Below the pieces are notes generated by a model. That model ran no database searches. It saw only the letters and a program-made list of their open reading frames with translations, and was not told the DNA's origin. From positions 963,047 to 1,027,046 of the forward strand of contig NPFB01000012.1 in NCBI GenBank assembly GCA_014084085.1: a DNA stretch of 64,000 nt, read 5' to 3'. Shown here in pieces: positions 2,559 through 54,391 of the stretch. The DNA is from Hondaea fermentalgiana (lineage: Eukaryota; Sar; Bigyra; Thraustochytrida; Thraustochytriidae). The translations under genes were made by a program, and so were the position numbers. The stretch's first letter is position 1, and each line of letters opens with the position of its first letter.

Positions 2559-4268
2559 ATGGCCGTCTTGGGCAAGGACGTCAAGGGCGGCAAGAAAAAG
2601 GGAGGCGGCAAGGGCGGCAAGGCTGAGCCCGAGCTGAGCGACGAGGACCGCGCCGAGGAGGAGAAGCGGCTGCGGCTTGCGGAAAATGACGTCCGAAAGG
2701 CGCGCGCCTTGCAGCTACGCGCGAGGCTAGAACGCGAAATGCAGCAAGAACTCCGCAACACACAAACGAACAAGCTCCGCGTGCAGCAACAGTGGCGCAA
2801 GATCCTGCGACTTGCCAAGGTTGAGTCTCTCCGCAACGACATTGAAATTCTCTCGCAGAATCACGAACGCGACGTCGACCGTAGCGACGCCATTATTCAG
2901 AGCCTCGACCGTGATGTCGAAGAGGCAGAGGAGCAGTATCAGACCGCGCTGCGTTCGCATCTGACCAACATCGACCGGCTCATCGACCAGCAGGACGCGC
3001 GTCTTTTGGCGCTGGAAAGCGAATTCGAGTCGGAAATGACCGAAATCGCGGCCGAGTTCAATGCCGAACGCGAGCAGATCATTCAGCAGCACAAGCTCGA
3101 AAAGCAAGAGCTCCTCGATATTGTTGCCGCGGTGGAATCCAAGGAGAGCGAGCGCGAGGCTGAAGCACGCCAAGAGCATGAGCAAACGCGCGAGGAGGTG
3201 CGCAACAAAAACCTCGAGGACGTGAACATTCTCCGCATCACGCTCGAGAGCACCATCGAGGAACTGGAGCGTTGTTTCGAGTCCGCGCATCTCAACTATC
3301 TGCAAAACACGGACCAGCGAACGCAGGACTTCAAGTTTCTTACCCGAAAAGACAATGAGCTCTCCAAGGAGATCGAGGCCAAGATTAAAAAGATTGAGCG
3401 CCTTCAGGCCTCCCTGAGCCACTGGCGCACAAAGATCTCGCAAAACGCCAAGGAATGCGATGAACGCAACGGCAGTCTGCGCGCTGAAAAGGACCAGATC
3501 AACAAACACTTTCTGGAGCTCAAGACACGAATGAACAAGTTCCGTGACTCTCAGTCAGCGCGTCTCATGGACCTAACCAAGGCAACGAGCTCTGCGCGGA
3601 AAAAGATTAGCGGAAACCTTGATCTTGCGGAGCGCATCTTAAAGCTTGCTGAGCTTGCGCGCAAGTACGAAACGCAAGAGGAGAAGATGCTCCCGTTTTA
3701 CGAGTCGACAGTCGCCGGAAAGGACGAAGGTCCGGACGCAGCTGAAGAGGAGGATACGACTGAAGATCATGAAAAAGTTGGCAGCACTTCGTGCCAAGAG
3801 GGAAAAGATCAAGTCGCCACCGGCGGTGAAGTCTCAGGAACGGAGGAAAAGGAAGACGAGGGCGCCAAGGCTGATCTTGGCGCCAAGATGAGGCTATTGC
3901 AGCACGACATCGAGTCGCCCGCAGAATTGATGGAGAAGGCGCGAGCGATTGGGCCCGATGGCAAACTTATCGACGAGTGGCAGGCTCTAGACGGCTTCTT
4001 TAAGCGGTACAACAAGGCGCTGCTTACCAAGTTGGCGGTGGACAAGGAGCGCGAGCGTCTCCAGAACGAGAATAATTTGCTCAAAGCTATGCTCAAGCAG
4101 TACTTGGACGGCGTTTCAGTGGTGCCGGAGACGCTCGATAACCCGAACCCGCTCTTGGTTGTCAACGGTCGCGTCAATCTTGCCCGAAGAGCGCCCATCG
4201 TGCACGAGGTGCCGCCCACGATTGTGGACGGAAACCTCAAGGTACGCTCCGCCCCAATTCGTCGCTGA
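2559..4268 (+). CDS. DRC2: Dynein regulatory complex subunit 2 (CCDC65/FAP250 family)
   Basis: A 569-residue protein with a Lys/Gly-rich N-terminus followed by long coiled coils (about 30-380 and 440-510). The order of segments matches the DRC2/CCDC65 family: an early helix with the QQWRKILR-type block, then LRNDIEILSQNHERDVDR, then the PNPLLVVNGRVN block near the C-terminus. DRC2 is a core subunit of the nexin-dynein regulatory complex, which links outer doublets of motile axonemes and coordinates dynein. Its presence implies a flagellated stage such as a zoospore. An acidic linker of about 60 residues (385-440) interrupts the coiled coils. The last codons overlap a GTACG motif, so a spliced alternative C-terminus is possible, but the uninterrupted ORF is the simplest reading. 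Confidence 0.88.
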   Translation: MAVLGKDVKGGKKKGGGKGGKAEPELSDEDRAEEEKRLRLAENDVRKARALQLRARLEREMQQELRNTQTNKLRVQQQWRKILRLAKVESLRNDIEILSQNHERDVDRSDAIIQSLDRDVEEAEEQYQTALRSHLTNIDRLIDQQDARLLALESEFESEMTEIAAEFNAEREQIIQQHKLEKQELLDIVAAVESKESEREAEARQEHEQTREEVRNKNLEDVNILRITLESTIEELERCFESAHLNYLQNTDQRTQDFKFLTRKDNELSKEIEAKIKKIERLQASLSHWRTKISQNAKECDERNGSLRAEKDQINKHFLELKTRMNKFRDSQSARLMDLTKATSSARKKISGNLDLAERILKLAELARKYETQEEKMLPFYESTVAGKDEGPDAAEEEDTTEDHEKVGSTSCQEGKDQVATGGEVSGTEEKEDEGAKADLGAKMRLLQHDIESPAELMEKARAIGPDGKLIDEWQALDGFFKRYNKALLTKLAVDKERERLQNENNLLKAMLKQYLDGVSVVPETLDNPNPLLVVNGRVNLARRAPIVHEVPPTIVDGNLKVRSAPIRR

Positions 4269-4567: not shown

Positions 4568-5287
4568 TCACCAGTCTTCCGGAAAAGCCCAGGCCATCTT
4601 TGCGCGAAGGACAAAATGACCAAACTCAAAGTCTGAAAAGAACTCTGGGATCTTGGGGTGATCAATCTCGGGTCCTTCCGGGTTGGGGAGATACTCGAGG
4701 TTCTCCTGCGCGGCAAGCGTCATGAATGGCTCCGGTCGGTCGTGAGTGTCTACGAGGGTGCGATAAAAAGGCTGGTCAGGTCCCTGCTCAAACGGACCCC
4801 ACTGCTCAATCCAGTCGGGTCCTGCAGGGCACTCTGTAAACCACTGCACGATGACGCCGCGAAAGCCGTGCTTGCGGTGCTGGAAGACATTGCCAATATC
4901 GAGGAGCACGTTGTCCGGTTTGGCAGGGACGTAGGTGCGGTTTTCGTAGACCTTGAGGCGACGCGAGACTGCGCGCAGGGCAGCAAATCCGGCCTCGGCT
5001 GAGGCCTCCATGGCCTCGTCCGTGGGGAAAGCGTCCTCGAAAAGATCCGTAATCGACACGAACGGAATGCTGCCGTACCCTTGGTCATCTGCTCGCTGGC
5101 GCTGGGCCTCGGAGCGTGGCAAGAATCTTCTAAACCTCTCTGTTTCGCGAATATCAAAGAGCTCGCTTCTGCGTGTCTTGAGCGTTGGCTTGACGCGCGT
5201 GCGCAGGTCGCGTATCCTCGTGTCCAGCTCTCGCGCGCCCTTGAACAGCTCGCGACGAAGCACGCCGCCCACGCTGGAGGCCGTCAT
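4568..5287 (-). CDS. YccV/HspQ-like (hemimethylated-DNA-binding fold) domain protein
   Basis: A 239-residue protein. Residues about 128-225 match the YccV-like domain: GNVFQHRKHGFRGVIVQW, then PFYRTLVDTHDRP, an ENLEYLPNP block, and a closing IDHP..FFSDFEFGHF. In bacteria the domain occurs in HspQ, a ClpS-like adaptor for Lon/Clp proteases that was first described as binding hemimethylated DNA. In eukaryotes it occurs in FBXO21 and the plastid Clp adaptor ClpF, so a proteolysis-adaptor role is the best inference. The first 45 residues contain a basic helix (GGVLRRELFKGARELD) that faintly recalls LYR-motif proteins; I treat this as weak. The N-terminus could also be a mitochondrial targeting region. 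Confidence 0.85.
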   Translation of the reverse strand: MTASSVGGVLRRELFKGARELDTRIRDLRTRVKPTLKTRRSELFDIRETERFRRFLPRSEAQRQRADDQGYGSIPFVSITDLFEDAFPTDEAMEASAEAGFAALRAVSRRLKVYENRTYVPAKPDNVLLDIGNVFQHRKHGFRGVIVQWFTECPAGPDWIEQWGPFEQGPDQPFYRTLVDTHDRPEPFMTLAAQENLEYLPNPEGPEIDHPKIPEFFSDFEFGHFVLRAKMAWAFPEDW

Positions 5288-6195
5288 GTTTCTGGTCGAA
5301 GGAGCGAGCTCTCGTTTGCACGAAGCTATCTTTTATTTCTGGCGACTCTGCCGCTGCAAGTTAGTGAGCGCGTGCGCGCTGCGCTCCTCGCTGTTGGCGG
5401 GCAGCAGTCCCCTTGTCGCGATCTCAAACTTGCCGCTGCAAGCTATCTGTCTGTCTGTTTGTCTGTCTTGGGCCTGACGATCTTGCTGTGAAGTCGCCTG
5501 CGGAATTTTATTCTTTATTCTTGCTGGCTTTTGGTTCGCTTGTCTTGCGTATGACATGTTAATTTCATATCGCTCTACGCGAAGGTCAAACCAGATTGAT
5601 CCAGAGGTATTAGGACGTGACCCAGCTGGCTGTGCATGGCTAAAAGGCTCTCTGCGTTCCTTGCTTTCTGTTTTCGTTCCTTTTCGCTAGAAAGCGCCCT
5701 TTTGCAATTTGATTATAGGCAAAAGGGCCTGTTTTGCAGTGGACGTCTGACCTCAACGGATCGCAAAGGGGGGATGATGGTGTTGGAGTGCCTTCACGTT
5801 TGCTTGTTGCAGGCACGAGATTGATACTTTGCTTGGCGTTGCGTTGCACTGCGTTACTTTACTATGCTTCGCTTTGCTGTGACTTGTTGTGCGTAGCGGA
5901 GAGGAGAGGCGCGTGCGAGAGTGTAGCGTGGTCGGAAATGTCAAGTCACAGAAAATAGTATAGTTAGTTTGGCATTGGAGTCGGGCCTTTGGAGAACAAT
6001 AGGGCTAAATCTTTGTTCCAGTCACTGGTAGTAGTTGGCCAAAGGTAACCGTGAACGTCTCGAGTCTGCTGCCGGCCCTAGAAAGTGTGCCAAAACGAGA
6101 GCAGACCCGTGACGCTTGAAGGCGCTAGTTTCCGTCACGGGGCGCGAGCACAGCGGGCAGCAGGTTGACCTCTTGTGCCGCCGTAGCAGTACTCC
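5288..6195. other. Divergent intergenic region (promoters of two genes)
   Basis: About 0.9 kb between the start codons of the YccV-domain gene (minus) and a coiled-coil gene (plus). It contains short CTGT runs (about 5446-5468) and a GCTTTG/GCGTTG-rich patch near 5830-5890. No ORF here has coding character. Confidence 0.6.
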
Positions 6196-7932
6196 ATGAT
6201 GGAGGACCTCGCGTGCATAGCGATGCCTGACCGAGAATGTGGAAAGGCTTTGATCCACACAAACGAGAAACAAGACGCTACTCTCTTGGGTGGCAATACC
6301 GCATTAGAAATTGACATGATGGAGACCAAGTCGGATGGCGGCAGTGAAGGAGAAGTCGAAGAAGAAGGACAGCAAAATAGCGGAAAAGACCCTTATTTGT
6401 TCGAAGAGAGCAAGACCCGAGCGCGCGAGACCAAGGAAAGCGCGGGGGCCGATCCTATGCTTTCTTTGGAGACTTTGGAGGGCTCGCAAAGCAGCTTTGC
6501 ATATGTGGAGAGCTTGCGCGCCATTTCTGCGAACGCGGAAGAGCCAGCATTCAACCTTCACCACTCAACAGCTGTTGCAATGCAAGGTGATAGATCAAGC
6601 GCGGGAAAAGCAGCCCATGTAGTGGAACTCCGTAGCTCGCGCGCCACAAAATCAGCGGAAGCACTCGACGAGGCGGACCAGACGGGGCATTTCGAGCAAG
6701 TAGATTTAGACGAGTCAAAGGGTCACGATTCAATTCAGGGCCTGAATACACGCATCGATGCCCCTCGTGAAGTCGAAGGCAACATTCATTTCACCCACAT
6801 AAACACCAAGTCTTTGGGCCAAGAAGCAAGGGTTTCGTCATTGTCTGACGTTGATGCCGTGCTCGAGGATCTTGATCGATGGGCCGCGGTGGACCGACGT
6901 CTGCTGGACGAGCTTGGCATTGCTGAAGCATCCCTGGAGCAGGATCGTCTTCGCTCCGACGAAAGCGAAACGATGATCCGACTGAGGTCTCAGTGTGACG
7001 AGTGGCGACTTCGCATGCTCGAAGCGGAAGGGCGTGCTGCCGTGGCGAGCGAAAAGCTAGCGCGTCTTGAAAGTGCGCAGACAAGCGTGGCGGAAGTGAG
7101 TGCGCTTTTCGCGTCGCATGAACGACGCATGGAGGCCGTGGTGCTTAGCAGTGTCGCGGCTGCCTTGGAAAGCGTCGGTGATGGCTTGCGTCAAGCGAAA
7201 TCGCCTGGAGATTCGTCGAAGAGCCCTGGCAAGAATAACGCTGCCGTGGGGCTGTCGAGCGCAAGCAAAGACAAAAGTAGCTCGCCATCTCGCGAAGACG
7301 ATTCGCAGTCAGCCGCCGCGCGCAAGGAGGCGAGTCTTCTGGACAAGATTAGGAGTTTGGAAAAAGAGCTCGCTGCAACAGGCAAGGAGCGCGACGAAGC
7401 TGTGCAAAGAGAATTTGCAGTGTCTGAGAAGCTCAAGGCTGCAGAGGTTGTGGGAAATAATGCTCGCGCTCAGTACGAGGAGGCAGTACATGATTTGCGC
7501 GAGGACATGAAGGCTCGTTTAATGGAGCGACAGTCTGCGGAAGCACGACGCATCAGCGGTCTGGAGCAAGAGGTGGAAAAGTTGACGACAAGTCTGGAAG
7601 CCAAAGACCATGCATTTTTAGACTTGCAGGATGAGCTTGCGCGCGTGAAGCAAGAAAGCGCTGCAAAGACACAGATTTTGGAGGACGACGTGGCGCGTTT
7701 GACGCGGGAGAACGGGAATTTGGAGTCGACGGTGCACGCGTCGCAGCTGGAGCTCGCGCGCATCAAGCACGATCTTGCAACGCGGCGTTCAGACGAGGAC
7801 GACCTGCTCGCGCGGCTCGCGGCCTTTCAAGCGTCTCAGATTGCCGCGGCTTCGCCGCCCTCGAGCCCGCGCGGCGCGCGTTCTTCCTCTACGGTGGCCG
7901 CCTCGCTTTCCTCGTGGTGGCAGAACGCCTAA
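6196..7932 (+). CDS. Coiled-coil protein, function not recognised
   Basis: A 578-residue single-exon ORF starting at tandem ATGs. Residues 1-215 are acidic and low complexity. A first heptad region runs at about 220-310 (DVDAVLEDLDRWAAVDRR onward), followed by a Ser/Lys-rich linker and a long coiled coil at about 370-545. The C-terminus is Ser/Pro rich and ends SSWWQNA. No catalytic motif is visible. It resembles cytoskeletal or trafficking scaffolds only in general build. A 19-bp tandem repeat array begins 17 bases after the stop. The start is uncertain because the N-terminal third is low complexity. Confidence 0.8.
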   Translation: MMEDLACIAMPDRECGKALIHTNEKQDATLLGGNTALEIDMMETKSDGGSEGEVEEEGQQNSGKDPYLFEESKTRARETKESAGADPMLSLETLEGSQSSFAYVESLRAISANAEEPAFNLHHSTAVAMQGDRSSAGKAAHVVELRSSRATKSAEALDEADQTGHFEQVDLDESKGHDSIQGLNTRIDAPREVEGNIHFTHINTKSLGQEARVSSLSDVDAVLEDLDRWAAVDRRLLDELGIAEASLEQDRLRSDESETMIRLRSQCDEWRLRMLEAEGRAAVASEKLARLESAQTSVAEVSALFASHERRMEAVVLSSVAAALESVGDGLRQAKSPGDSSKSPGKNNAAVGLSSASKDKSSSPSREDDSQSAAARKEASLLDKIRSLEKELAATGKERDEAVQREFAVSEKLKAAEVVGNNARAQYEEAVHDLREDMKARLMERQSAEARRISGLEQEVEKLTTSLEAKDHAFLDLQDELARVKQESAAKTQILEDDVARLTRENGNLESTVHASQLELARIKHDLATRRSDEDDLLARLAAFQASQIAAASPPSSPRGARSSSTVAASLSSWWQNA

Positions 7933-7948
7933 ACTGTATTGTCAAGCT

Positions 7949-8073
7949 GAGAGCGTTGGCCTCGGTCGAGAACTTTAGCCTCGTACGAGAGCTTTGGCCT
8001 CGGTCGAGAGCTTTGGCCTCGGTCGAGAGCTTTGGCCTCGGTCGAGAGCGTTGGCCTCGGTCGAGGGCTTGGC
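7949..8073 (+). repeat. 19-bp tandem repeat array
   Basis: Six consecutive 19-bp units (consensus GAGAGCTTTGGCCTCGGTC) starting at 7949, 7968, 7987, 8006, 8025 and 8044, followed by a partial unit. Three units are identical; the second is the most diverged. The array lies in the presumed 3' UTR of the preceding coiled-coil gene. Confidence 0.93.
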
Positions 8074-9387
8074 AGGGCAAGGCAAGGCGAGCAAGCTCAG
8101 GTCTTGTCGCGCCCTCAGGTCATCACTGTCGCTTTTTTATTTTTATGAAGGTGTGCGCTGGGCGCCCCGGCTCTTTTGGCGCAACACAATTTGCGCACAC
8201 CTGCCTGGCCGTCGTGTTGATCACCGATGCTGCGCGGCGCGCGTCCCGGCGGTGGCTGGCCGGGCGGGGCGGTCTGCGGAGTGGCGCGCGCTCAAATCGG
8301 GCGCTTTCTTTCTTTTTATTTTCTTTCGGTCGTTCGTGGTGGCTGGCCCAAGCGGCCTAGGCCGGCGTCCCCAGTCAAGAAGAATAATGACTAGGCCTAG
8401 ATGCGGCCGGGCTTGGATGTCGTAGCCGTGCCGCCACCCTCTAGCCTGCTCGCGCAGAAGTTTTGGCACCGACCGTCACCGACAGCGAGCAGCAACACAA
8501 CACAACAGGCAGGCAGGGGATGCCGCGTCGCTGGCCCGACGAAGATCGCCGCGGTATGGAGCAGAAGCCGCGCAGCGAGCCCGAGGATGCCGCCAGGCAC
8601 GGGACCCTAAAACAAGAAGTAAAAAAAAAATCGGCCTCACGCTCGGGAGGACACCCACCATGGCCAGTGCAACGCCAGTGCGTGCGCTGCGCGTGTGTGT
8701 ATACGAAGATTAACACCAACCATGGCAAGTGACTGAGCCTGCGAGCAAAAAGATCAACCTGGCAGGCCGACCGAGCCAAGCAAGCCAAGCAAGGCCGACG
8801 GGAGGGACAGGTCCCGCGCGTCCTGCACGCGCGGCTCAATCGCTGTGCACTCGAAAGAGGGCGCGAAACCGTAGTGTGAAAAAATTATGAAAAGCCAACC
8901 ACACAAGGCAAACAAGGCACGCATGGCAAGCATGGCAGGCATGGCAAGCATGGCAAGCGAGGCCTCGGACTTGGCCTCGTCCCGGCTTGATGTGAGTCCT
9001 GGTCTTCCCGACGGGGGTCCTCGGTCAAGGCCGTCGTCGCGGATTGTTTGCTTGCCGCAGCCAGCCAGGCGCTTTGGCCGGGCCGTGCATGGCTTGAGCG
9101 ATGCACCCCGAGCCAGCGGTGCACATTGGTGAAAAAACATGTGCAGCAGCCAACTGCAAGCAGAGCAGGCAAGCTGCAGCTAGCAGTGGCAGCTGTAGCT
9201 TGCGGTGCTCGGCTGCAGCAGCAGCTGCCTGCGCAGCGCACACCCAAGTTCTTGGCGGAGACGCAGCCAACTCGTCGAGCCTTGGCACGATCGTAGCGTC
9301 TCAGCCTGCCATGATGATGATCCCCTCGCGCCGTGGCCGCCGCCAGTGCAGTGGCATGGCCGTCCGTCATCATCCGTGGCCAATGCC

Positions 9388-50780: not shown

Positions 50781-50903
50781 TACCGTACATCTCAATGGTA
50801 CGTAATTGTAATACCGTACATTTCTGATACGGTATTGCTAACTTTGTTTCAATAACGTACCGCTGAGGTACGTTATGATAACTTACTTACAGTTACTAAC
50901 TTA
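50781..50903 (+). repeat. Left part of a ~41-bp palindromic minisatellite
   Basis: Three degenerate units. Each has a palindrome of the form ACGTACC-N5-GGTACGT or TACCGTA...TACGGTA, followed by a TTATTGCTAACTTACTTA-like spacer; the clearest unit starts at 50855. The units have the same orientation as those on the right at 52868-53026, so the mobile element between them appears to have inserted into one array. The last three bases are the left TTA target-site copy. Confidence 0.8.
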
Positions 50904-50950
50904 GGGCAATTGCAATAAGCCGCTTTTTGGCGCCACAAGCCAAAAATTTG
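50904..50950 (+). repeat. Left terminal inverted repeat
   Basis: Pairs with 52813-52859. The core GCCGCTTTTTGGCGC is identical in both ends; flanking bases have small indels. Confidence 0.85.
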
Positions 50951-51246
50951 GCTTCTTGAAAGATGACTCTTGAAAAGGTTTTTACCGACAGAGCCATGCT
51001 GGCCAGCATGGCTCAGATTATAAGAATTTCTTTCAATTTTCTTTTGTAGAGACGTGAGAATCTGTGGTATATGCACCTTTCGTTCTCATGAGAACCCTAG
51101 CATTTTCTAGCCTAACGACAAGAGAAACGATGATCCTTCTTTACTGTTAGTGCACTGGATTGCAACGCTGCGCTCCAAATCGATCGACAAAGCAGATACT
51201 TCGGGCTGTGCGCGCGGTCGGTGGCGTCATCGTAGTTGTCGCGACA

Positions 51247-52548
51247 ATGGCAAGCAGCTACGACGTAGAGGATTGCGACGGGGCCGCGACCTGCAATGAG
51301 GTTGCGACTAGTCTAGTCCAGGACCTATCTTGTGGTGAGCCGAACGCGCGCAGAGAGAGAGGTGAGCGAGAGGGTGAGCTTGGTGAGCGTGGCGGCAACG
51401 AGAGAGCGGAAGCGAGCGATCGCTCTGGTGCCTATCCTCCATGCATGGACATCGGAAACGATCACGATCCTTCCCACAAGCCTCGCGGCAGCGACACCCC
51501 TCGAAGCACCTCCCGTGGCGGCAGGGGCTTCTCGTACGCGAAGGCTGAAGATGAATGTCTCATCTCTGCATACGTAAATGTCTCAGAGGACAGTATCCGT
51601 GGAACGAACCAAAAGGCGGAGGAATTCTGGAACTCCGTGCAGGCCAAGATGCTGGAGCTCATGGCGCGAAAAAATGTGGCGTCCCGTTCCCCAGTTGTCC
51701 GCACGTCGATTGCACTTAGAAATCGCGTGCGGACTATCGAGCGGGAGTGCAAGCGATACATATTCTGCAACTTGCAGGCTCGCAAAACGACGAGGAGCAG
51801 CGGCTGGTCTGAATCAGACTATGTTGAGCGAGCCGAGAAGCTGTACTTTGAGGAGGGCCTTGCCAAAACTGGTAAGGACGCAAACTCCCTGAGCGCAAAA
51901 GAATCTGCTGCCCTGAAATTTAAGTTCGCCCACGTCATTGACATTATTCAGCAGATGGAGTCACTCTCCCGCATCGCGGCGTCGACCGAACTGTCCGAGC
52001 CCAGCCATGTCGTGCCTGGAAGCGACGACGACCACAGCGACGACGACCACAGCGACGTCTCTCACTCGGACGAAGAGGAAGACAGTCCTACCATCTTGCG
52101 TTCAACATCAACATCTTCTAGTTCTGATTGCTTCAGCCAAACCTCCGAAAGCTCCTCGATCTCGAGCACGGAGTCAGCATGGGGATATATGAAGAAGAGG
52201 CGTGCGCGCTTGCAGGCTTCAAAACGGGCATTTGGCAACAAAAAAGTGACCCTTCGAGCGAATCAAGCGAAGAAAGCTCGGATTAGAGAAAACATGCACG
52301 CAGCTGCTGCACTGGAGGTGCTCGAAAGCGAGAAGCGTTTGTCCGGGCTCATTATGACTGTTTTGAGAGAGCACAAAGACTTTCAGTTGTCGATCTCGCA
52401 GATCAATAGCAAGCGCAGTGCGTTACAGCTCAGGTTTTTCCGCGGTGTCATCACCGACGAAGAATTCAGCACGGAACTGGACAAAATTGAAGCCGAACGG
52501 TCAATGTTGAGGATGGATCAAGCCGACGCAACAGGGTGTGCGGAATGA
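51247..52548 (+). CDS. Myb/SANT-like DNA-binding protein of PIF/Harbinger ORF2 type
   Basis: 433 residues from the ATG at 51247; the frame is open upstream to 51160 only from a TTG. Residues 1-95 are acidic and disordered. Residues about 97-200 carry the trihelix/Myb-like domain seen in Harbinger accessory proteins and plant NAM-associated proteins: GFSYAKAEDECLISAYVNVS, then GTNQKAEEFWNSVQAKM, a LRNRVRTIERECKRY helix and the block GWSESDYVERAEKLYFEE. An Asp/Ser-rich linker follows, then a basic region and a C-terminal coiled coil (about 370-425). In autonomous elements this protein works with the transposase by binding DNA and aiding its nuclear import. The ORF is intact, which suggests recent activity or a retained role. 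Confidence 0.82.
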   Translation: MASSYDVEDCDGAATCNEVATSLVQDLSCGEPNARRERGEREGELGERGGNERAEASDRSGAYPPCMDIGNDHDPSHKPRGSDTPRSTSRGGRGFSYAKAEDECLISAYVNVSEDSIRGTNQKAEEFWNSVQAKMLELMARKNVASRSPVVRTSIALRNRVRTIERECKRYIFCNLQARKTTRSSGWSESDYVERAEKLYFEEGLAKTGKDANSLSAKESAALKFKFAHVIDIIQQMESLSRIAASTELSEPSHVVPGSDDDHSDDDHSDVSHSDEEEDSPTILRSTSTSSSSDCFSQTSESSSISSTESAWGYMKKRRARLQASKRAFGNKKVTLRANQAKKARIRENMHAAAALEVLESEKRLSGLIMTVLREHKDFQLSISQINSKRSALQLRFFRGVITDEEFSTELDKIEAERSMLRMDQADATGCAE

Positions 52549-52812
52549 TTGTGCTCGTGCCTGTACTGCGCACCTCAACCGCAGTGTCGAGTTCATTTGT
52601 GCGATTGCAGAGTCGTCGCTTGTGCTGCTCGATTCTTCACTGGCACTGGCAGCCTGAGTGGTCGTTAAAGTAGGAAAAATTTAGTCATCGCTACCGTACG
52701 TCTTATCGTATGCAAGGAGGGAGACTGTGACGTTGAGTCCCCAAAAGAATGCCCGATTTTCCCGCTCGTAAACAATCGTCTAATTTATCGCGTGCTTTTA
52801 CGCTCTACTTTT

Positions 52813-52859
52813 GAAATCTTTGGCTTTGTGCGCCAAAAAGCGGCTTATTTATTAGGCTC
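52813..52859 (-). repeat. Right terminal inverted repeat
   Basis: Reverse complement of the left end as described for 50904-50950; immediately followed by the right TTA target-site copy (52860-52862). Confidence 0.85.
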
Positions 52860-52867
52860 TTATGTTT

Positions 52868-53026
52868 ACGTACTACCGCGTAGATACGTTATTGCTAACT
52901 TACTTATAATTACGTACCGCGTAGGTACGTTATTGCTAACTTACTTATGATTACGTACCGCGGAGGTACGTTATTGCTAACTTACTTATGATTGCGTACC
53001 GCGAAGGTACGTTATCGCTACCCTGG
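52868..53026 (+). repeat. Right part of a ~41-bp palindromic minisatellite
   Basis: Units start at 52868 (44 bp), 52912 (41 bp), 52953 (41 bp) and 52994 (partial). Each contains the palindrome ACGTACCGCG(N)2-3GGTACGT followed by TATTGCTAACTTACTTAT. A related palindrome, TACCGTACAGTCACGGTACG, lies at about 53033-53053. The array ends about 150-180 bases before the DHODH start codon, so it lies in that gene's promoter or 5' UTR. Confidence 0.9.
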
Positions 53027-53209
53027 CCTCCGCTACCGTACAGTCACGGTACGCAATTGGCATGTGGCGGGCGCGGGCGGGCGGGCAAGCAGCAACAGCC
53101 GTGCAGACAGACAGACCCCAAGCGAGGAGGGCTGGGACCCGGTGGCTGCGCGCGGCAGACAGGGCGAGAGCGACCGGACGAAGGGGCTGGAGACAAAGAG
53201 GCTGCGAGA

Positions 53210-54391
53210 ATGGCCGGCACGATGAGGTTCGCGCGGAACGCGCTGCTAGGCGGCTGGGCGGGCATCGGGTGCGCCGTCGGCTACGGCTACTGGACCCAGG
53301 ACGAGCGCGTCTTCAACCAGGTCATCATGCCCATGGTGCACACGTTCACGGACGGAGAGCAGGCGCACCGACTGGGCGTATTGGCCGCCAAGTACAAGCT
53401 GATTCCGCGACCCACCAAGAATGAGGGCCTCGACCTGGCGCTCAAGCAATCGTTGTGGGATCTTGAGTTTGCTAATCCAGTGGGCTTGGCAGCAGGCTTT
53501 GACAAGAACGCAGAAGGCGTCGAAGGCATGGCTCGCACTGGATTTGGCTTTGTCGAAATCGGCAGCGTGACTCCAGAGCCACAGCCAGGAAATCCGAAAC
53601 CGCGCGTCTTTCGCTTGCCGCAGGACCAGGCTGTCATCAATCGCTACGGCTTTAACAGCGACGGACACGCTGCCGTCAAGGCCAACCTTGAGGCGTACTT
53701 GTCTGACGCATCGCGCACGCCCTGCGTGCTGGGCATCAATCTGGGCAAGAACAAGACCTCCCCGAGCGCCATTGAGGACTACGGCAAGGGTGTGCGCGAG
53801 TTTGCCACCATGGCAGACTATCTCGTTGTGAACATCTCAAGCCCCAACACGCCCGGCCTGCGTAACCTGCAGGCCAAGCGTGAGCTCGACGAACTCATTA
53901 GCAATGTGGTGCAGACCCGTGATGAGGTCTGCGCCGGCCGCCGCCGCACCCCTGTTGTGCTCAAGATCGCGCCCGATCTCAGCGAGGACGACAAGCAGGA
54001 CATTGCCGATGTTGTCACTTCGCGAGGTGTGGATGGTCTCATCGTATCCAACACCACAATTGCCAGGCCAGAGACTCTCGTGAGCGACGCGCGTGGCGAA
54101 GTTGGAGGCCTGAGTGGAATGCCCGTCAAGGACAAGTCCACCGCAGTTATTCGCGACATGTACCGCCTCACGCAGGGCAAGGTTCCCATCATTGGCGTTG
54201 GCGGTATCAGCACAGGCATTGACGCTTACGAAAAGCTAAAGGCCGGCGCCTCGCTGGTTCAGTTGTACACTGCGCTCACATATCAGGGTTTCCCGCTCGT
54301 GAATCGTCTCAACCGCGAACTCAAGGTTCTCATGGAGCGCGACGGCTATCATACGATTGCGGAAGTTGTGGGCAAGGACCACGAAAAGTGA
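53210..54391 (+). CDS. DHODH: Mitochondrial dihydroorotate dehydrogenase (quinone, class 2)
   Basis: 393 residues from the ATG at 53210; the frame is open upstream through the minisatellite but is not protein-like. Residues 1-25 hold a basic start and a hydrophobic segment (LLGGWAGIGCAVGYGYW), the usual bipartite signal that anchors DHODH in the inner mitochondrial membrane. The FMN barrel follows: NPVGLAAGFDKNAEGVEG, GSVTPEPQPGNPKPRVFRL, INRYGFNSDG, the catalytic Ser in NISSPNTPGLRNLQ (S211), KIAPDLSEDD, SNTT and GVGGIST. It oxidises dihydroorotate to orotate in pyrimidine synthesis and passes electrons to ubiquinone. Length and motif order are typical. Confidence 0.97.
   Translation: MAGTMRFARNALLGGWAGIGCAVGYGYWTQDERVFNQVIMPMVHTFTDGEQAHRLGVLAAKYKLIPRPTKNEGLDLALKQSLWDLEFANPVGLAAGFDKNAEGVEGMARTGFGFVEIGSVTPEPQPGNPKPRVFRLPQDQAVINRYGFNSDGHAAVKANLEAYLSDASRTPCVLGINLGKNKTSPSAIEDYGKGVREFATMADYLVVNISSPNTPGLRNLQAKRELDELISNVVQTRDEVCAGRRRTPVVLKIAPDLSEDDKQDIADVVTSRGVDGLIVSNTTIARPETLVSDARGEVGGLSGMPVKDKSTAVIRDMYRLTQGKVPIIGVGGISTGIDAYEKLKAGASLVQLYTALTYQGFPLVNRLNRELKVLMERDGYHTIAEVVGKDHEK

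Follow-up and report, generated by a model that had tools for sequence, protein, structure and literature searches.

A PIF/Harbinger-like insert of the thraustochytrid Hondaea fermentalgiana that may encode a Myb/SANT-like accessory protein alone

Can a DNA transposon keep the gene for its accessory DNA-binding protein while the transposase is made elsewhere? This question is raised by a discrete insert in the genome of the marine thraustochytrid protist Hondaea fermentalgiana, which occupies positions 50901-52862, counting its TTA flanks, of the window (the whole stretch of 64,000 nucleotides analysed here). The reading moderately favoured by the evidence below is that of a non-autonomous PIF/Harbinger-type DNA transposon with a Myb/SANT-like accessory protein as its sole gene content. 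In PIF/Harbinger systems such as Ping/Pong of rice and Harbinger of fish, a Myb/SANT-like accessory protein is required beside the DDE transposase and the target duplication is 3 bp, as described in three papers (PMC9921582, PMC9179366, PMC9710019). Two of them state that both proteins are needed in rice and zebrafish, that in zebrafish a subterminal motif of 9 bp is the binding site of the Myb-like protein, which enters the nucleus with the transposase, and that duplications of the superfamily are typically 3 bp (PMC9921582, PMC9710019). The insert resembles these systems in its likely Myb/SANT-like product and its presumed 3-bp duplication, and differs from them in the lack of a transposase ORF, in presumed termini that are unpaired, and in a protein that scores below the Pfam cut-off. 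Literature searches, subscription papers aside, listed no title or abstract opening that names a Myb-only Harbinger element or one in thraustochytrids. An element of this kind would mean that catalysis need not sit on the element that provides end recognition, and could serve to test why an adaptor gene stays intact. The insert and its coding part are as follows.

50904..52859, plus strand: insert, 1956 bp, with presumed ends 5'-GGGC... and ...GCTC-3'
51247..52548, plus strand: ORF for P0001, a likely Myb/SANT-like protein of 433 aa
51523..51801, plus strand: likely Myb/SANT-like (trihelix) domain, residues 93-185, Pfam PF13837
52177..52542, plus strand: predicted long C-terminal helices, residues 311-432, from a structure model with generic fold matches

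The original prediction had described a single intact ORF, and this is borne out by 433 codons (51247-52548) with no internal stop. The stop-free stretch spans 465 codons, a length that none of 500 Markov sequences of the same composition as the ORF reaches (longest, 417). The GC content at third positions is 0.62 in the ORF, whose two neighbours have values of 0.71 and 0.67. The open frame continues upstream of the ORF start without an ATG, and 17 of the 22 residues preceding the ATG match the N-terminal part of P0003, the only independent relative found in the protein searches (word-based; two of them scored about 8,000 candidates). The ORF may start at a non-ATG codon, or its 5' end may have been lost. 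P0003 is a protein of 481 aa encoded on a contig of 2,111 bp, and 254 of the 433 residues of P0001 are identical in it overall; identity is 129/157 over residues 89-245 and 18/73 at the C terminus.

The ORF product likely contains a Myb/SANT-like domain, as had been predicted. In a profile search, Pfam Myb_DNA-bind_4 (PF13837) matched the cut-out domain of P0001 below the family cut-off, with E values that varied with the cut between 0.0085 and 0.003, and that of P0003 with an E value of 4.3e-5 (24.3 bits, the family cut-off being 27); it matched none of eight shuffled sequences. Whole-protein Pfam scans of P0001 and P0003 reported no Myb family. As for the NAM-associated profile PF14303, it met P0003 at an E value of 0.01, below the cut-off, and left P0001 unmatched. 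SR-25, the best whole-protein match of P0001 (E 0.0018), was set aside as a below-cut-off match to a low-complexity part, and the NCBIfam search returned nothing for P0001. Two AlphaFold models (two sequences each) reached pLDDT values of 57.6 and 67.8, and the matches listed by Foldseek and VIA were generic helical proteins with no convincing Myb/SANT match among them; one SANT-containing chain, 1ofc (ISWI), ranked 48th with an E value of 5.2, which is chance level. Since the models are of low-to-middling confidence and the fold comparisons did not bring out a Myb fold, the assignment to Myb rests on sequence. Searches of solved structures and of phages gave no match to the protein, and 313 pattern matches in viral contigs contained no relatives.

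The non-coding DNA of the insert amounts to 343 bp on the 5' side of the ORF and 311 bp on the 3' side, and a genome search with DDE_Tnp_4 (E<=0.001) found no match inside the insert, in agreement with the earlier statement that the element holds no transposase. Hence, if still mobile, the insert probably moved by means of a transposase made elsewhere. The same search located three loci in the genome: C14:1076524 (L013), which lies on the same contig as the insert, 61 kb downstream, C173:436804 (L014), and C221:355907 (L015); PF04827 re-finds L013 and L014. The matched part of L015 has one in-frame TGA, those of L013 and L014 are free of stops, and both L014 and L015 hold long runs of N, with the transposase frame of L014 entering a long N gap. 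At the three loci, the inverted repeats among the best ten pairs scored no higher than a chance-like 11-13, and no ends paired at 12 of 16 positions lay beside a 3-, 8- or 9-bp duplication (eight words for the 3-bp class), in a scan that would also miss the insert with its TTA boundary. Moreover, the repeat core of the insert does not occur near any of them. The three loci are possible trans sources, although none could be tied to the ends of the insert.

Some further features of these loci deserve mention in their own right. At two of them (L013:2683-8202, equal to C14:1074682-1080201, and L014:about 4900-8892, on C173), a convergent ORF of about 900 codons lies beside the DDE_Tnp_4 transposase. 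The two ORFs share 39% identity and have no clear family match (Pfam on the C-terminal third, NCBIfam on the whole), and hhalign found no relation between them and the Myb-like pair. The arrangement looks like an element of two genes whose partner protein is uncharacterised, and this different neighbour ORF counts against the favoured reading of the insert. Within the transposase frame of L013, at about 2950-3620, four similar repeats of some 60 residues (SARECYDNIDKFWRSCGSFHACGFADTR...) precede the catalytic domain. At L015:4822-6900, a coiled-coil-like ORF lies beside the DDE_Tnp_4 match and adjoins an N run.

The original prediction had looked to full-length relatives or other ORF2-only copies, and the genome search with both repeats and the protein found none. 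In the assembly (36.0 Mb in 238 contigs, with gaps and perhaps incomplete), this locus is the only one matched by the DNA of the whole insert, by the 433-aa protein (E<=0.01) or by its 156-aa domain (E<=10). The repeat core, with three mismatches or fewer, occurs in at least five places, of which two are the insert's own ends, two have two mismatches and one (L008) has three (one place in the reversed control), and a 15-mer of the core, with at most one mismatch, in at least 18, again including two of its own (eight in the control). Two places with a 2-mismatch core (L016 and L017) have no paired arm at the core among the best ten pairs of each. Absence of both other copies of the terminal repeats and a related Harbinger transposase had been named as evidence against the reading; the search turned up no further copy of these repeats, in line with half of that condition, whereas the three DDE_Tnp_4 loci go against the other half, though none could be tied to the insert's ends. 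As regards other Myb-like places, two of the three weak PF13837 places (L040 and L041) resemble classical MYB genes with several repeats and were rejected, and the third (L042) has no such ORF of at least 200 aa in the stretch inspected. PF12776 gave no match, its control likewise matching nowhere. Elsewhere in the genome, PF14303 has two weak places.

The insert could also be what is left of a PIF/Harbinger element that once held two genes and from which an internal deletion removed the transposase half, the ORF being an undecayed remnant with no present function. This alternative is unlikely, although it survives better than the others: it would account for the lack of a second copy and of a transposase with the insert's ends in the searches, and the upstream frame, which aligns to P0003 at 17 of 22 residues yet has no ATG, looks as if the 5' part had been damaged. 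On the other side, the ORF is intact over its 433 codons, and the contig of P0003 leaves about 665 bp beyond an ORF of 481 codons (about 1,446 bp), similar to the 654 bp that the insert has outside its ORF and too small for a transposase frame of the size of that at L010 (406 codons). That contig may be a second accessory-only element, and the short layout may be shared and not a one-off, or the contig could simply end early. It is a still more tentative suggestion, and a rather doubtful one, that there is a lineage of short Harbinger elements without transposase, the P0003 contig included, in which the Myb-like adaptor is kept under selection. If true, such an accessory-only lineage would bring its own end-recognition protein and borrow the catalyst alone.

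For a non-autonomous PIF/Harbinger-type element with a Myb/SANT-like gene, the ends of the insert and its target are the next evidence to consider.

50901..50903, no strand: left TTA, presumed target-site duplication, its boundary symmetric with the right one, 10 bp beyond the inverted-repeat core
52860..52862, no strand: right TTA, presumed target-site duplication, from sequence and boundary comparison
50914..50949, plus strand: left inverted-repeat arm, 36 bp, with full identity to the right arm over its first 20 bp
52814..52849, minus strand: right inverted-repeat arm, which pairs with the left arm
50926..50952, no strand: three copies of TTTGGC/GCCAAA (50926, 50939, 50947), candidate binding sites
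50991..51014, no strand: perfect 24-bp palindrome GAGCCATGCTGGCCAGCATGGCTC
50817..50889, plus strand: left flank, target DNA with diverged units of the 41-bp tandem array
52874..53020, plus strand: right flank, with the rest of the units of this 41-bp array

The arms are complementary at 32 of 36 bp, and the best 30-bp pairing between the outer 150 bases of the two ends reaches 27/30, compared with 16-19 in 20 Markov shuffles. The inverted repeats with an identical core that had been predicted are therefore present, the identical run, AATAAGCCGCTTTTTGGCGC, extending over 20 bp and thus beyond the 15 bp first given. However, when the outer 10 bp of the presumed ends are compared (5'-GGGCAATTGC with 5'-GAGCCTAATA), only three of the ten positions match, a point that had gone unremarked, so that the paired part stops short of the presumed termini and begins 10 bp inside. 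Such a mismatch is unlike typical termini. Both presumed termini conform to GRGC, and the PIF/Harbinger superfamily is characterized by a preference for TTA and by G-rich termini. Apart from the three TTTGGC/GCCAAA copies at the left end, two further ones lie near the other end, at 52819 and 52832, and five of the eight copies in the insert fall within 60 bp of one end or the other; as four of these five are wholly inside the paired arms, the presence of the motif at both ends partly follows from the pairing.

The TTA on both sides, which had been predicted, is found at symmetric offsets. Among 160 boundary pairs tried, ten have identical flanks of 3 or 4 bp, including two of the 32 symmetric pairs (TTA and TAC). 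CTTA, an asymmetric flank one base off the TTA boundary, also fits. Furthermore, a scan for paired 16-mers with a duplication placed TA and AT boundaries, inside the core and paired at 16/16, at the top, and the TTA boundary was absent from its list; TA and AT are palindromic and, thus, indistinguishable from a longer inverted repeat. With ten of the 160 boundary pairs matching and the TA and AT boundaries pairing better, the TTA duplication alone is weak evidence. In statistical terms, a duplication of 3 bp is weak, and it is not unique; the TTA boundary is plausible and by itself not compelling, and the exact boundaries of the insert are presumptive.

The target array gives some support to the TTA boundary. 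When the flanks are joined over a single TTA, the alignment to the 41-bp array is unbroken at the junction (between ACTTA and TG), with gaps of 20, 3, 4 and 3 bases away from it. In a ranking of 1680 flank joins by similarity to the array, the TTA join came 894th, since that scan rewarded joins deeper in the array; in addition, cheap-gap local alignments extended into the insert from both sides and did not locate the edge of the array. The right flank, which holds most of the array, has no other match in the assembly. The array itself (window 50781-50900 and 52863-53060) is palindrome-rich and separates two divergent genes, one diacylglycerol-kinase-like and the other for dihydroorotate dehydrogenase.

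These boundaries also bear on an improbable alternative, a transposon of another superfamily, for instance with a TA duplication at the repeat core, that captured a Myb-like gene. Perfect core pairing does start at 50914 and run inwards, where the first-ranked TA and AT boundaries with their 16/16 pairing would place the ends of such an element. Nevertheless, about 12 bp would then be left on each side between the TTA boundary and the element, the TTA join scored higher than the TA join (43.5 and 34.0) in one fixed comparison with the array, and a Myb-like partner ORF is a known PIF/Harbinger hallmark (PMC9921582, PMC9179366, PMC9710019).

Membership of the insert in PIF/Harbinger is, thus, probable. 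The paired ends, the TTA flanks, the single ORF, the likely Myb domain and the absence of a transposase inside all agree with the predicted PIF/Harbinger reading, whereas no transposase or second copy with the insert's ends was found that would bear out membership by descent. By analogy with the known systems, we infer binding, recruitment and mobility of the following kind. At each end of the insert, the arm with its TTTGGC/GCCAAA copies would serve as a binding site for the 433-aa protein, and this protein would recruit a DDE transposase supplied in trans from another locus, which would cut at the GRGC termini and insert at TTA. Such an insertion would have landed in the 41-bp tandem array, between the divergent genes.

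Comparison with other elements and genes related to this superfamily helps to place the insert. Miniature inverted-repeat elements (MITEs) are short, non-coding and multicopy. Like MITEs such as mPing, the insert is non-autonomous and would depend on a transposase made elsewhere; unlike them, it was found once and codes for an accessory protein, and a MITE is ruled out by the 433-codon ORF and by the lack of a second copy in the search. Spy-type Harbinger-like transposons also have a single ORF and are the reverse of the insert, as the transposase is kept and the Myb-like ORF is absent (PMC9179366). In NAIF1, ALP2, HDP2 and DPM7, a PIF/Harbinger-derived Myb-like gene is likewise kept in the genome; however, these domesticated genes accompany a domesticated transposase and are recognised by their lost transposon ends (PMC9710019), whereas the insert keeps its ends and no partner was found for it. 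That the Myb-like gene was domesticated for the host and the repeats are leftovers, a host role that the original prediction had also entertained, is the least probable explanation and a very improbable one: a single intact copy and the 129 of 157 residues (89-245) conserved with P0003 would suit it, whereas an insert that still has its inverted repeats and TTA runs counter to the domestication criteria in use (TIR/TSD loss and conserved synteny across species; PMC9710019), and the protein searches (word-based, about 8,000 candidates in two) show the P0003 contig and the window's own record alone, so that no conserved synteny is visible.

The insert also flags a public gene model that joins the transposon ORF to dihydroorotate dehydrogenase. 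P0002, the Hondaea fermentalgiana dihydroorotate dehydrogenase record, matches 49% of the ORF product with 100% identity, starting at ORF residue 67 and continuing, after residue 280, in the dihydroorotate dehydrogenase gene; its first 214 residues are, thus, those of the transposon ORF, spliced over the right end of the insert. This fusion is probably an artefact of gene prediction and not a real one. On a reading of the DNA, the splice would run from window position 52085 to 53249 with GT...AG borders, and it would skip the ATG of the dihydroorotate dehydrogenase gene itself, at 53210.
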